From positions 930,001 through 994,000 of the forward strand of contig NZ_CP016780.1 in NCBI RefSeq assembly GCF_002288325.1: a stretch of DNA of 64,000 bases, read 5' to 3'. Position numbers and translations under genes: made by a program. Origin of the DNA: Candidatus Planktophila lacus (lineage in GTDB: Bacteria > Actinomycetota > Actinomycetes > Nanopelagicales > Nanopelagicaceae). Numbering within the stretch: position 1 is the stretch's first letter; each line of letters opens with the position of its first letter. The notes beneath the pieces are model-generated. The model had not been told where the DNA came from, searched no databases, and saw only the letters and a program-made list of their open reading frames with translations. Positions 30,554-38,832 of this stretch are shown one piece after another.

Positions 30554-31039
30554 ATGATCTTCGACGTTGTAGTTGAAATCCCTGCTGGCTCGCGCAATAA
30601 ATACGAAATCAATCACACAACTGGTGAAGTTCGTCTTGATCGCATGCTCTTTACCGCAACGCGCTTTCCGCACGATTATGGATTTGTAAAGAACACTCTC
30701 TCAAACGATGGCGATCCACTCGATGCTTTGATTATGTTGGATGAACCAACATTTCCTGGCTGCGTAGTTTCTTGCCGCGTTATAGGAATGTTCCGCATGA
30801 CCGATGAAAAAGGCGGAGACGACAAGTTGCTCTGCGTTGCCGCTGGAGACATTCGTAAATCAAATCTCAATGATCTAGACGACGTCCCTGTTTACGAACT
30901 CGATGAAATCAAGCACTTCTTTGAGGTTTACAAGACGCTCGAGCCAGGTAAGGAAGTTCACGGCGGAGATTGGGTCGGACACGACGCCGCTGAAGAAGAA
31001 ATCCTCGCGTCATATAAGCGATATAACGAAACCCACTAA
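30554..31039 (+). CDS. ppa: Inorganic pyrophosphatase (family I)
   Basis: Hydrolyses pyrophosphate released by biosynthetic reactions. The 161 residues show the conserved N-terminal FDVVVEIPAGSRNKYEINH, the catalytic region FPHDYGFVKNTLSNDGDPLDALIM (signature DGDPLDALI), and KHFFEVYKTLEPGKEV. A GAGAG sequence lies upstream of the ATG. The gap to the amt gene holds a small CCGCC/GGCGG hairpin (31068-31085) with no T tail, and a doubled ATTGCTCC. Confidence 0.96.
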   Translation: MIFDVVVEIPAGSRNKYEINHTTGEVRLDRMLFTATRFPHDYGFVKNTLSNDGDPLDALIMLDEPTFPGCVVSCRVIGMFRMTDEKGGDDKLLCVAAGDIRKSNLNDLDDVPVYELDEIKHFFEVYKTLEPGKEVHGGDWVGHDAAEEEILASYKRYNETH

Positions 31040-31105
31040 GACTCCCCTTTAGCATTGCTCCATTGCTCCGCCACACATTAGGCGGTACAGATTTCGGAGA
31101 GCGCT

Positions 31106-32374
31106 GTGATTGATGTAAATACTGGTGATACCGCTTGGGTTCTAGCAAGCGCTGCCTTAGTTCTTTTCATGACACCTGGTTTGGCAGTTTTCTATGGTGG
31201 CATGGTTCGCGCCAAGAGCGCGCTAAATATGATGATGATGTCATTTGCCGCAATCGGTGTGTCAACGATTATCTGGGTGCTTTATGGATATTCGCTGGCC
31301 TTCGGTAAATCAAATGGTGGATTAATCGGAAACTTCGATCACATTGGTTTATCAAATACTTTGGATCAAGTAACTGGTGCAGAAGGTCATCAGATTCCAG
31401 TTCTTGCCTTTGCCATGTTCCAATTAACTTTCGCGATCATCACCGTTGCCCTTCTTTCGGGCGCAATCGCAGATCGTGCAAAGTACGGCTCATGGGTTGT
31501 CTTCGTAGCCGTTTGGATAACTCTGGTTTACCTACCTATCGCTCACTGGGCATTTGCCACACAAGGCGGTAACGGTGGATGGATCATCGACAAACTTGGC
31601 GCACTCGATTTCGCTGGCGGAACTGTTGTTGAAATCAACTCAGGCGCAGCAGCGCTAGCTCTTGCACTAGTTCTCGGAAAGCGGGATGGTTTCAAACGCG
31701 ATCCAATGCGTCCACACAATATGCCGTTAGTTCTTCTTGGCGCAGGAATGCTCTGGTTTGGATGGTTTGGATTTAACTCGGGATCCGCACTATCTGCAGG
31801 ATCTCTTGCAGCAACAGCAGTGATTAACACTCAAATTTCTACTGCAGCTGCAGCCATGACCTGGATCGCTTATGAAAAGAAGCGTGATGGCAAAGCAACA
31901 ACCTTGGGCGTTGCATCTGGTGCAATCGCTGGCGCAGTAGCAATCACGCCTGCATGTGGTTTCTTAAACCCAATGGGCGCGCTAGTTCTTGGACTAATCG
32001 CAGGTGTTGCATCTGCTTGGGCGGTAACTCGCAAATACAAGTTCGGATATGACGATTCACTAGATGTTGTCGGCGTTCACGGCATGGGCGGACTTATCGG
32101 AATGCTCTTTATCGGTTTGGCAGCAACAGTTACTGCTAATGCTGCAGGTAAAGATGGCCTCTTCTTCAAGGGTGGCACGGACCTACTGCAATCTCAGGTA
32201 ATCGCGATTGTCGCTGTTGCAACCTTCTCTTTCTGCGCAACATGGTTAATCGCAACCGTGATTTCAAAGACCATCGGCTTCCGAGCATTCCGCGACGACG
32301 AACTAAATGGCCTCGATACGACTTATCACGCCGAATCGGCATACGACATAACCGGAAACTCAAACCGGTACTAG
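31106..32374 (+). CDS. amt: Ammonium transporter with Glu at the first twin-His site
   Basis: Eleven-helix Amt/Mep/Rh channel-type carrier for ammonium uptake, 422 residues from a GTG at 31106 with CGGAG upstream. Family motifs are clear: FMTPGLAVFYGGMVRAK, QLTFAIITVALLSGAIADR and WFGWFGFNSGS. The pore normally has two facing histidines (His168 and His318 in E. coli AmtB). Here the first motif reads DFAGGTVVEINSG with Glu176, while the second is intact (VVGVHGMGG, His325). The same His-to-Glu form is known in some fungal Mep proteins. It is followed 27 bases later by a PII gene, the standard amtB-glnK pairing. Confidence 0.95.
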   Translation: MIDVNTGDTAWVLASAALVLFMTPGLAVFYGGMVRAKSALNMMMMSFAAIGVSTIIWVLYGYSLAFGKSNGGLIGNFDHIGLSNTLDQVTGAEGHQIPVLAFAMFQLTFAIITVALLSGAIADRAKYGSWVVFVAVWITLVYLPIAHWAFATQGGNGGWIIDKLGALDFAGGTVVEINSGAAALALALVLGKRDGFKRDPMRPHNMPLVLLGAGMLWFGWFGFNSGSALSAGSLAATAVINTQISTAAAAMTWIAYEKKRDGKATTLGVASGAIAGAVAITPACGFLNPMGALVLGLIAGVASAWAVTRKYKFGYDDSLDVVGVHGMGGLIGMLFIGLAATVTANAAGKDGLFFKGGTDLLQSQVIAIVAVATFSFCATWLIATVISKTIGFRAFRDDELNGLDTTYHAESAYDITGNSNRY

Positions 32375-33393
<1,019 letters not shown>

Positions 33394-33702: not shown

Positions 33703-34890
33703 TTAACGCGCTTCTAGGAACTGCTTTGAAACAGTCCGTGCCAGAATTGGCTTAGCGTTCGCCCAAGAAATTCCGTAGACCTTTTCAAAGGCTTGATCAA
33801 AAGTCATTCCTGACGCATATTTATCCAGTACATCAAAGGTAAATGAAATTCCACCAATCGATGTCAGTGCCTCAACAGCTATAAATCCGATGTCATAAAT
33901 ATGTTTACGTGTTGCTGAATCACATGGCTGCTGATGCTGCAGATCAAAGAATTTGTTGATACTTGCTTCTGAAAAATCAGGTAATCCACGCAGTGGCGGA
34001 CGAAGCCAACTGCGACGGTTCTTTACGTATTCACTTAAACTTGCGCTGCTAGAAGTTTGCCCAACAACCTGCGGCTGTCCCTCAGAAAACCAGCAGGGAA
34101 TCGAAAATCTCTTCAAGCCATACTTTTTGTAGATTGATTTCTGGATTGTGTGAGTAGTTTCGTGCGCATAGTGAGATCGTATAATTGCAGTATTTGTGTT
34201 TGAAGAGTTTGGTAATCCAGACACACCCTGAATTATCAACCCTGAATCAAGTGAAATATTTCCAAAAGCATTGTCACACTCTGCTTGCGAACTACAAGCT
34301 ACGCCTACTTGATCTGAAAATGTGTCATTTAATGTGAATGGGGACGCAATCGTGCTGAGTCGAGTTTTTGCCCAATCCCTGTCGGTGAAATTAAACGCAA
34401 CCACTAGGAATTTGGATTGTTTGGGGAAGTTTCCACCGAGTTGTTGAGCTCTAGAAATTCCATACTCAATTTCTGAGTAGGAATAAAGGATTTTTGTAGA
34501 TTCACCTTTTTCAACATCCACCTTAATTGGCGTGCTCAAGGGTTGAGCAAAGAGTCTCTCGGCATCGACCCACACAGAATTAGGAATACCTTTGTAATTC
34601 GCTTCTAAATCTTCGAATGAAGTTGGCATTGCGGGAACGATTTCAATTTTAGGTGTTGGAGTTGGGGTCGGGGTCGGCGTTACGACTGGCATCGGCGTGG
34701 ACAACTTCACGCCTTTGTTCCATATAAGTTTTTTGCCGGACTTGATGCATTTGTATTTGATTCCAGAAACAGTTGTAGCTGCATTAAGTTTGGTACAAGG
34801 CGCTCCCGCCTTAACTGCGCCAGAAGCCGACATCGCAGGAACCAGAACCATGATCAAGGCAAGAACGACTGCGGATATGGATCGCTTCAT
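33703..34890 (-). CDS. Secreted putative gluzincin metallopeptidase
   Basis: A 395-residue protein with a signal peptide (VVLALIMVLVPAMSASGA). It has a short Cys-bearing wall-type motif (PCTKLNAATTVSGIKYKC...GKKLIWNKG, about 31-60), a Pro/Thr linker (about 68-85, TPTPTPTPTP) and a C-terminal domain. That domain contains HETTH near residue 242 followed by PCWFSEGQPQ about 25 residues later. HExxH plus a downstream Glu is the zinc site of gluzincins such as the peptidase MA group. This is a motif-based call; substrate and activity are unknown. It stands alone between tRNA-Lys and a PLP enzyme. Confidence 0.75.
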   Translation of the reverse strand: MKRSISAVVLALIMVLVPAMSASGAVKAGAPCTKLNAATTVSGIKYKCIKSGKKLIWNKGVKLSTPMPVVTPTPTPTPTPKIEIVPAMPTSFEDLEANYKGIPNSVWVDAERLFAQPLSTPIKVDVEKGESTKILYSYSEIEYGISRAQQLGGNFPKQSKFLVVAFNFTDRDWAKTRLSTIASPFTLNDTFSDQVGVACSSQAECDNAFGNISLDSGLIIQGVSGLPNSSNTNTAIIRSHYAHETTHTIQKSIYKKYGLKRFSIPCWFSEGQPQVVGQTSSSASLSEYVKNRRSWLRPPLRGLPDFSEASINKFFDLQHQQPCDSATRKHIYDIGFIAVEALTSIGGISFTFDVLDKYASGMTFDQAFEKVYGISWANAKPILARTVSKQFLEAR

Positions 34891-36260: not shown

Positions 36261-37127
36261 ATGACGCAGACTCGCCAGAATTTCACGCTCTCCGTTGGAC
36301 GCAATCTTGAGTATTTAACCAACGGACTCAAATCAGAGGCCGCGATTATTCTGCATGCCGGAACTACACAAGACATAGCTGGTTGGCAGACCTGGCTTGA
36401 TTACTTTGCTTCGAAAGGCATATTCGCGCTCTCATTTGGACGAAGTGGATATGCCGGAAGCACCAACCAGCCAGGGCGTATAACTCTTGATGTAGCCAAA
36501 GACGTTGCCGAACTTTCCCAACATCTCGGGATAACCAAGTTTGTAAACCTAGGACTTTCTGGTGGTGGGCAACATGCGATTGCTACAGGACTTGATCCTC
36601 GTTCAGTTGGCGTTGTAACGGTCGGAAGCTTGGCTCCCTTTGCTGAACTCGGTGAGCGCTTCTATGACGGCATGCAACAAGCTGATCTCGATGAATACGC
36701 AGATGCACTGCGCGATATCAACGACTTAATCAAACGTTTTCAGGGTTGGCAAGATGGAAACGTTGCCGATTCCGTTGCTGGAGCAGAATTGAGCGAACGC
36801 GATCAATTGGCAGCCTCAAAGCCAACTTGGAAGGTGGTGCTCGATTCCTGCGCCTTCACAATGGAAAAAGGCTGGGATTGGGTGGCAGATGATTACAGCT
36901 CATACCTGCAGCCATGGGGTTTTGATCCGCGTGATGTAAAGGTGCCAACAGTTATTTGGCAAGCAGAGTTAGATAAGAACGTGCCAGTTCAACACGGAAA
37001 ATGGCTTGCAGAACACATGCCAAACAACCGTTTTGATCTCCGCGCCGGTGAAAGCCACTTAGGCCTTTACGTAAACTACGAAGAAGAGATCATGCAGAGC
37101 GCAATCGCTCTGCTTACTTCTTCTTAA
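36261..37127 (+). CDS. Alpha/beta hydrolase
   Basis: A 288-residue alpha/beta hydrolase fold protein without a signal peptide. The nucleophile elbow is NLGLSGGGQHAIA (GxSxG form). A candidate acid is in WQAELDKNVPVQHG and the His in GESHLGLYVNY. The substrate is unknown. No ribosome binding site is visible before the ATG, and a TACGCT element lies six bases upstream, so the mRNA may be leaderless (inference). The 3' end overlaps the convergent secreted-protein gene by 14 bases. Confidence 0.88.
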   Translation: MTQTRQNFTLSVGRNLEYLTNGLKSEAAIILHAGTTQDIAGWQTWLDYFASKGIFALSFGRSGYAGSTNQPGRITLDVAKDVAELSQHLGITKFVNLGLSGGGQHAIATGLDPRSVGVVTVGSLAPFAELGERFYDGMQQADLDEYADALRDINDLIKRFQGWQDGNVADSVAGAELSERDQLAASKPTWKVVLDSCAFTMEKGWDWVADDYSSYLQPWGFDPRDVKVPTVIWQAELDKNVPVQHGKWLAEHMPNNRFDLRAGESHLGLYVNYEEEIMQSAIALLTSS

Positions 37128-38832
37128 ATCCTGTTGGGCAGACTGGCTTGACGGCAGTCACCCTCTTGGAAGTTTTCCCCTTTACGCATGTGATGGTGGT
37201 CTTCTTTGCGACCGCAGGCTTTGCAACCGGAGTAGCAACCGGCTTGTCTGCTTCTTGTGTCAACTTAACGCGAACTGTTGGAGCCGAGTAGGTAAATCCA
37301 TTTGCTGATAGGTAGAGCCAGCCATTCTTTTCGTTGACTGTAGTTGTGGCAACCTGAGCAGTTCCATCTGAAGAAACGATGCTAATCGTTGCAGATATCG
37401 GAGCCTTAGAGAATTTATATAGGCAACGCGCTGCTTCGGAGCTCAAAACTAGATTGTAGTTTCCAACATTGTCCTTGCCGTTAGCATCGTAATGTGGAGA
37501 GGAAACCTTGTAATCAAGTGACTGTGTTGCCTCATTGAATGTAGGAGGAGCTGAAACATACATATTGGCATTTGTCGTGACTATGCCCGTCAAATTAGTG
37601 TTGTTTGAAAGGCACGCAGACGTGCCCGAACTAAAAATTTCCTGCTGGCTTAGAGTTCTGGCAATCCAAACGGACTTAGTTCCGATTGCCTTGTCTTTAG
37701 CTACTTCAAGCCACCATAAATACTCTTTGAAGCCGTTTGCATCGTATTGATCGAATGCCTGCAGCAACTGGACGCTATCTCTTCCCTTGCCTAATTTATC
37801 GTCATATACGAAATTTCCGCCCCAATCATTCATGGCGTAGAGGTAGTCGTAAAGACCCTTAGGCATATCTGAATTCTTTACCCAAGCACTTAACACTGGA
37901 ACAGAAACAGGTCCACCTTCAACTGAGAATATCTGTCTTCCCATCGAATCCGTTGAGATTTTAATTGTTGGATCAAGGAGGCGCCCATGCATAAAACTGG
38001 TTAACTGAATACTCGTTCTTATCTCAAGACGATAACGCACATCGTTTGGAAGTGGCCATGCCAGGCCACACTCACCGGTATCGCCAGTATGTGCACCAAT
38101 TACGAAGCAGCCCATAGTTGGTGTATTTGAATACCAAGCTTTTCCAGATGAGTCTGCTTTTCCAGCTCTAACGCGAATATCTGGGTAAGAAGGATTCTTA
38201 TCTGAAGACATCGCAAAAATGCCAGAATTAAATTGATATGGAGAGAGCATTGGCTTGCTTCCACCATAACCACCGGGGTGGAAATAATCTGCAAAGACTA
38301 GGAATTTATCTCCGCCTTGGTGAGTTATTCCATCAAAGGTCCAAATGGAAGGTAATCCTCCGTCGGGAATCTTTAGACTGGCATCACCTTTAAACGTGTA
38401 GTCAGACTTTTCTGGGAAGTTAACGACAAACTTTCCTGGAATTTCTCTGCCGGCTTTAATCGCCGTAACGCCAATAATGCAATTTGTATCGGCATCAGTT
38501 TTGCAAACATCGAGTACTGCGTCATACCAAATGTTATCTGCATTAGTGCAATTTGGATCTGAGTATGAGCGGCAAACAAAAGCCTCCTTCTGAACCCACG
38601 CACCATTTTTCTGCTCGTAATACATTCCAAGCAACTTAGAGTGACTGCCTGTGATGCGTCCTGCATCTTCAACTAAAATACCTGTGTAACCACCAACGTT
38701 CTTAACTGCAGGTCCCTGATCCTGAAACTGTTCAATTGGCTTGGTATCTGCGCTGGCGAGAATCGGAACCGATAGCCCCAAAATCAGAAGTGTTGAAAGT
38801 AGGCTCTTGATCAGCTTCTTGGACTTGCGCAT
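37114..38832 (-). CDS. Large secreted protein of unknown function
   Basis: A 572-residue protein with a signal peptide (LIKSLLSTLLILGLSVPILASA). The mature region has many Cys residues in pairs (VCRSYSDPNCTNAD, VCKTDADTNCIIG), aromatic, extracellular-looking sequence (DYFHPGGYGGSKPMLSPYQF), and a basic C-terminal motif (TITCVKGKTSKRVTAVKPVCPTGFKKK) that begins after a Pro/Ala linker. That short two-Cys tail looks like a repeated wall or surface attachment signal. I do not recognise a catalytic domain. GGGGGAG lies before the ATG. It is convergent with the hydrolase. Confidence 0.75.
   Translation of the reverse strand: MRKSKKLIKSLLSTLLILGLSVPILASADTKPIEQFQDQGPAVKNVGGYTGILVEDAGRITGSHSKLLGMYYEQKNGAWVQKEAFVCRSYSDPNCTNADNIWYDAVLDVCKTDADTNCIIGVTAIKAGREIPGKFVVNFPEKSDYTFKGDASLKIPDGGLPSIWTFDGITHQGGDKFLVFADYFHPGGYGGSKPMLSPYQFNSGIFAMSSDKNPSYPDIRVRAGKADSSGKAWYSNTPTMGCFVIGAHTGDTGECGLAWPLPNDVRYRLEIRTSIQLTSFMHGRLLDPTIKISTDSMGRQIFSVEGGPVSVPVLSAWVKNSDMPKGLYDYLYAMNDWGGNFVYDDKLGKGRDSVQLLQAFDQYDANGFKEYLWWLEVAKDKAIGTKSVWIARTLSQQEIFSSGTSACLSNNTNLTGIVTTNANMYVSAPPTFNEATQSLDYKVSSPHYDANGKDNVGNYNLVLSSEAARCLYKFSKAPISATISIVSSDGTAQVATTTVNEKNGWLYLSANGFTYSAPTVRVKLTQEADKPVATPVAKPAVAKKTTITCVKGKTSKRVTAVKPVCPTGFKKK

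Follow-up and report, generated by a model that had tools for sequence, protein, structure and literature searches.

Repeated His/Glu changes at the first pore site of prokaryotic ammonium transporters, traced from a Glu-type Amt of a freshwater actinobacterium

An ammonium transporter (Amt) of an acI-type freshwater actinobacterium carries glutamate in place of the first pore histidine, and comparison across prokaryotes revealed that this swap arose many times in bacteria and archaea, usually beside a His-type copy, so that it looks like a recurrent functional split rather than a freshwater oddity. The gene lies in a window of 64,000 nucleotides (the whole stretch of DNA analysed) within the complete 1.385 Mb genome of this organism. 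The protein probably works as an ammonium transporter under GlnK control, with Glu at the first site, and is an accessory paralogue that would provide a higher-flux mode beside the His/His AmtB of the same genome.

A Glu-type Amt with an otherwise intact pore

The amt gene (31106..32374, + strand) has a GTG start preceded by a likely ribosome-binding site, GGAG (31096..31099, +; read from the sequence), and encodes 422 amino acids. The Pfam profile PF00909 covered the whole protein (402 bits, E = 2e-120), and NCBIfam TIGR00836 scored 443 bits against a cut-off of 343. The structural model, built from 40 relatives with a pLDDT of 94.7, displayed the Amt fold with about 11 membrane helices, and its best PDB match by Foldseek was Archaeoglobus fulgidus (Af) Amt-1 (TM 0.89/0.96), with E. 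coli AmtB, including its H168E variant 2now, matched as well.

HMMER alignment placed residue 176 of the window Amt, Glu (codon GAA, 31631..31633, +), in the column of E. coli AmtB His168, where Af Amt-1 also has His, and aligned His325 (codon CAC, 32078..32080, +) to AmtB His318; the Glu at the first site and the His at the second had both been noted in the initial annotation and are thereby confirmed. The protein thus departs from the twin-His AmtB type at the first site (Glu176) and agrees with it at the second (His325). The motif DFAGGTVVEIN is letter-identical in the window Amt and in the AmtB entry 2now, which has Glu at the same column. Also, the Phe gate is present (F109 and F223; F107 and F215 in AmtB), D168 and W220 correspond to AmtB D160 and W212, and S227 is likewise kept. 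Residue 150 (codon 31553..31555) is Phe instead of Trp148 of AmtB, at the ammonium entry site (S1), but a link of this Trp-to-Phe replacement with Glu was dismissed, as the share of Phe in this column was alike in Glu forms (112/182) and His forms (56/91) of an actinobacteria-dominated Amt set.

Both Glu176 and His325 were found in all 65 distinct orthologues (at least 68% identity), and the second pore His was invariant in 307/307 Amt relatives. Retention of Glu in every orthologue down to 68% identity indicates that the residue is under constraint and rules out a sequencing accident. A pseudogene was also ruled out, given the open frame, the conservation of the gene and its own adjoining glnK, and chance or misalignment behind the motif was excluded by the alignment together with a reversed-motif control, which gave no match in the class sample.

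The ppa-amt-glnK locus and the second Amt of the genome

In the window, ppa, encoding inorganic pyrophosphatase (30554..31039, +; PF00719), amt, and glnK, encoding a PII signal protein (32402..32740, +; PF00543, 107.6 bits; T-loop RGAEYTVDF, read from the sequence), are consecutive on one strand. Among relatives with the Glu copy, ppa was a conserved 5' neighbour: of the 65 loci whose upstream sequence was long enough, 57 had it upstream in the same orientation, and the complete ppa-amt-glnK arrangement was seen in 53 of the 67 that were read. L343 and L344, two relatives that lack the Glu copy, have ppa directly before the GmrSD_C-type gene that adjoins glnK downstream in the window, indicating that amt-glnK behaves as a two-gene cassette, present or absent at a fixed place. 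The corresponding interval spans 30554..33393 in the window; in L341 (G014), a tyrosine-integrase gene follows ppa instead. A promoter and terminator scan gave matches no more numerous than in shuffles. Further downstream, two long ORFs of 395 and 572 aa on the - strand (33706..34890 and 37117..38832) have signal-peptide-like starts and are without a Pfam family.

The dedicated glnK adjoining the gene could be taken to mean that the Glu copy is sensor-like, mainly reporting ammonium to its own GlnK and transporting little. This reading is highly improbable, considering that the His copy of the genome also has its own glnK, that the pore of the window Amt is intact and an extra sensor domain is absent (Pfam and model), and that in fungi it is the His form, Mep2, that signals, with Glu abolishing signalling (PMC7048316, PMC9040831).

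The other Amt of the genome (L001, G000:C1:840109-841341) is a His/His form, preceded by an ORF read as ftsY and followed by glnK and glnD; the amtB-glnK-glnD operon is a known arrangement in Streptomyces and Mycobacterium (PMC4222082). This His copy occurs in almost all of the 201 genomes of the order and the Glu copy in only 58, which makes the Glu copy the accessory one. Whether Glu is simply the norm of the clade, which had been named as grounds for discarding the initial annotation, is therefore answered in part: Glu is invariant within its orthologue group (65/65), but that group is confined to 58/201 genomes of the order. The orthologue of the acI-A1 strain IMCC25003 (L137; PMC5301498) is 87% identical to the window Amt, so that the organism very probably belongs to the genus named Ca. 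Planktophila. Amts 78-85% identical to the window Amt were also found in MAGs titled 'Bifidobacterium breve' (L106 and L112) and in a MAG titled 'Streptomycetaceae bacterium' (L142, read in part), and these titles look wrong. In addition, genome search uncovered three relatives of the Glu-type Amt (L277, L292, and L293) with one in-frame stop, TGA or TAG, inside the match, where the remaining open frames still cover 411-464 residues.

Distribution of the Glu form

The Glu form was searched for in 297 Actinomycetes genomes with a DNA pattern for D[FY]AGGxxVE[IV] and with the reversed motif as the control. The Glu pattern was detected in 63/297 genomes and in 27 of 114 genera, with no match to the control pattern; at least one match (G396) lies outside the Amt family. 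The His counterpart of the pattern was present in 226 of the 297 genomes, and 52 of the 63 Glu-pattern genomes had both, compared with 174 of the other 234, indicating no enrichment of co-occurrence within the class beyond the general presence of His copies (Fisher's test, p = 0.24). Among 15 sampled Glu genomes from several phyla, 14 also hold a His copy. Outside this class, no confirmed Glu Amt was found in the evenly drawn sample (about 450 genomes) of 248 Pseudomonadota and 198 Bacillota, besides the focal genomes, which had been chosen for carrying one; four other Glu-motif matches in these two phyla proved not to be Amts. The motif matches shown not to be Amt genes include L317-L321 and L336.

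Scanning about 85,000 genomes of named species yielded at least 116 loci, and Amt was recognized in 103 of the loci listed, all with Glu. Among the matches listed, actinobacterial carriers comprised Streptomyces, Mycolicibacterium, Nocardia, Rhodococcus, Gordonia, Arthrobacter, Nocardioides, Pseudonocardia, Acidimicrobiaceae, and freshwater actinobacteria, and carriers elsewhere comprised Planctomycetota, Acetobacteraceae and other Alphaproteobacteria, Clostridium magnum, Methanobrevibacter cuticularis, and Methanoregula. As the pattern is strict, all counts of the Glu form are lower bounds. Accordingly, the earlier statement that this form is much less common in bacteria stands outside Actinomycetes, where it is rare, and does not stand within the class, where it is a common minority.

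This distribution also bears on the suggestion of the initial annotation that Glu reflects an adaptation to low ammonium in fresh water, through better capture of scarce ammonium. The order does occur in lakes, acI bacteria are oligotrophs (PMC5301498), and it is common for a prokaryote to have several Amts that differ in affinity (PMC9277239). However, soil-dwelling, host-associated, and anaerobic organisms widely carry Glu forms, and the occurrence of these forms in Streptomyces, Mycolicibacterium, Nocardia, Arthrobacter, Planctomycetota, Clostridium magnum, and methanogens rules out a freshwater-specific trait. The limited share of genomes with the Glu copy in the freshwater order itself, beside the nearly universal His copy, also speaks against it. 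Moreover, the engineered AmtB H168E has a Km of 12.9 mM compared with 0.8 mM (about 16-fold higher; PMC9040831), which argues against it as well. The suggestion is thus unsupported, and we regard such an adaptation as improbable.

Repeated origin and tandem pairs

Quick trees with SH-aLRT support, from which the columns around site 176 had been excluded, placed 15-17 Glu/His changes, of which at least 13 were forced by well-supported branches; since part of the sequences in the trees had been selected with the Glu and His patterns, this count is a minimum for the sample and not a rate. A single Glu clade was rejected, as forcing the Glu rows together cost 1505 log-likelihood units (AU test, p about 1e-242). 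The tree count alone gives no direction, but as both the outgroup and the sister copies have His, a change from His to Glu is the more probable one. Many Glu forms had as their sister the His form of their own genome or of a close relative, as in Methanoregula, Methanobrevibacter, C. magnum, an uncultured Clostridia member, Acetobacteraceae, Arthrobacter, and Micrococcales including Aurantimicrobium. The Glu clade of the window is older, grouping with Glu forms of other actinobacterial families and not with the His copy of its own genome.

Tandem Glu and His copies were found in at least eight family-level groups, sometimes in the order amtH-glnK-amtE-glnK. Operons of this kind, with His and Glu Amts and one or two glnK genes, were seen at L194, L158, L198, L262, L325, and L328-L331, in archaea, Clostridia, and several actinobacterial families.

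The tandem arrangement of many pairs raises the alternative that one ancient Glu lineage persisted while its flanks were repeatedly overwritten by the His copy of each genome through gene conversion, instead of repeated His-to-Glu change. In line with this, the Glu copies of f5, f13, and Pseudonocardia shared more identity with the own His copy close to the site than over the rest of the gene. However, in Methanobrevibacter, C. magnum, the uncultured Clostridia member, Rhodopila, Aurantimicrobium, and Arthrobacter, the two similarities were about even, several of these pairs lie on different contigs, and the alternative would need nearly the whole gene to be replaced each time with one codon region spared. 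Most Glu copies resemble their own His copy near the site as they do elsewhere, with no travelling Glu tract seen. Gene conversion as the sole explanation is unsupported in most pairs and the ancient-lineage alternative is unlikely, although local gene conversion in some tandem pairs is possible.

Function at the first pore site

Published mutants give an indication of what Glu may do at this site. In addition to its raised Km, AmtB H168E is active with much larger currents and without a K+ current (PMC9040831), and it was the sole methylamine transporter among 14 pore-His variants, with a structure unchanged apart from the residue (PMC3647058). In yeast, Mep2 H194E showed a higher Vmax and a shifted pH optimum, and Mep1 with His restored was inactive (PMC7048316); in oocytes, Mep1 was electrogenic and Mep2 electroneutral (PMC7048316). 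Variants of Dictyostelium AmtA demonstrated, on the other hand, that Glu alone does not fix behaviour (PMC10100761).

By analogy with AmtB H168E, Mep1, and Mep2 H194E, the most likely reading of the window Amt is a faster, less tight uptake mode next to the His copy. The Glu side chain would serve as an acid/base group at the first pore site, as in these three proteins, and would make the pore more hydrated with ammonium transport retained, which may raise the flux, along with a reduced apparent affinity or a shift in the pH response. On this view, the His form would take up ammonium when it is scarce, and under other conditions the Glu form would provide a second, faster or more voltage-driven mode of uptake, presumably shut by its own GlnK. 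The role of a higher-flux partner is inferred from the published mutants; the fixation of Glu, the intact second His, Phe gate and fold, the ppa-amt-glnK locus, the separate His copy, and the at least 13 changes all count in favour of this explanation, and what counts against it is that the mutants are not native proteins, as the Dictyostelium AmtA case illustrates, and that co-occurrence of Glu and His forms was not above expectation. In lake water, a transporter with a Km in the millimolar range would achieve little, suggesting that the native protein differs from AmtB H168E or that its use is restricted to ammonium-rich moments.

Neutral variation, with either residue serving equally well and the paralogue retained solely for its gene dosage or its own regulation, is compatible with the growth still supported by AmtB H168E and Mep2 H194E (PMC3647058, PMC7048316) and with the weakness of covariation at other positions. 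Position 179, three residues past Glu176 (Ser179 codon 31640..31642, +; Ala171 in AmtB), was Ser in 168/182 Glu forms and Ala in 80/91 His forms, and in independent Glu/His pairs, positions 246, 293, 249, and 179 nearly always shifted the same way (p = 0.016-0.03), but no position passed correction for the 852 tests, so that the covariation is suggestive only. It is possible, judging from the alignment, that Ser179 accommodates Glu176. Neutrality predicts reversals within orthologue groups and the appearance of other residues, whereas Glu was retained throughout the orthologues and the column of residue 176 held only His or Glu among sequences taken by similarity rather than by motif; the inactivity of Mep1 with His restored also argues against it. 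Neutral variation is thus rather unlikely, and a distinct, higher-flux mode of the Glu copy is preferred.

The role of the first pore histidine in proton relay, selectivity, and flux is still debated. The repeated Glu/His changes, many of them beside a His partner, amount to replicated natural experiments in which native pairs from one genome are directly comparable. As a tentative generalization, which we hold to be somewhat less than even in likelihood, prokaryotic Amts may have repeatedly split into two functional classes by duplication and His-to-Glu replacement, with the two forms, often encoded in tandem together with one or two glnK genes, acting as a matched pair (e.g., selective versus high-flux uptake, or mixed trimers). 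The swap itself is already known from fungi and from mutagenesis, and the natural Glu variant has been named for fungi (PMC3647058, PMC9040831). No prokaryotic Glu form was found described in the openly readable literature, and the passages searched of a 2023 review of prokaryotic Amts carry no mention of a Glu variant (PMC10433425); to that extent, the recurrent prokaryotic split is new.

Comparison with known systems

The window Amt shares with E. coli AmtB and Af Amt-1 the PF00909 family, the fold, the Phe gate, and the second His, as well as a PII partner gene in the case of AmtB, and differs from both by the lack of His at site 1 and from AmtB by Phe150 in place of Trp148. The engineered AmtB H168E (PDB 2now) is closer at the site itself, with the same residue, column, fold, and surrounding motif, but it was made by mutating a His/His protein that shares about 40% identity with the window Amt, and it retains Ala171 where native Glu forms have Ser three residues on. 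The genome's own His/His copy is likewise an Amt with its own glnK, and is distinguished by its sequence (57% identity), its site-1 His, its ftsY-amt-glnK-glnD locus, and its near universality in the order.

The parallel drawn in the initial annotation with fungal Mep1/Mep3 is correct: in these proteins (e.g., Glu181 of Saccharomyces cerevisiae Mep1), Glu also replaces the first pore His with the second His kept (PMC7048316, PMC9040831), and a His-type paralogue is present in the same genome, a part played by L001 in the window genome. The fungal proteins differ in being without a PII partner, whereas the window Amt has glnK, and in trees of prokaryotic Amts, Glu forms probably emerged on many separate occasions from His forms. 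The His/Glu recurrence in prokaryotes thus parallels the fungal split of Mep1/3 and Mep2, and if the proposed division into two functional classes is true, the fungal division into Mep1 and Mep2 would represent a single case of a wider rule.
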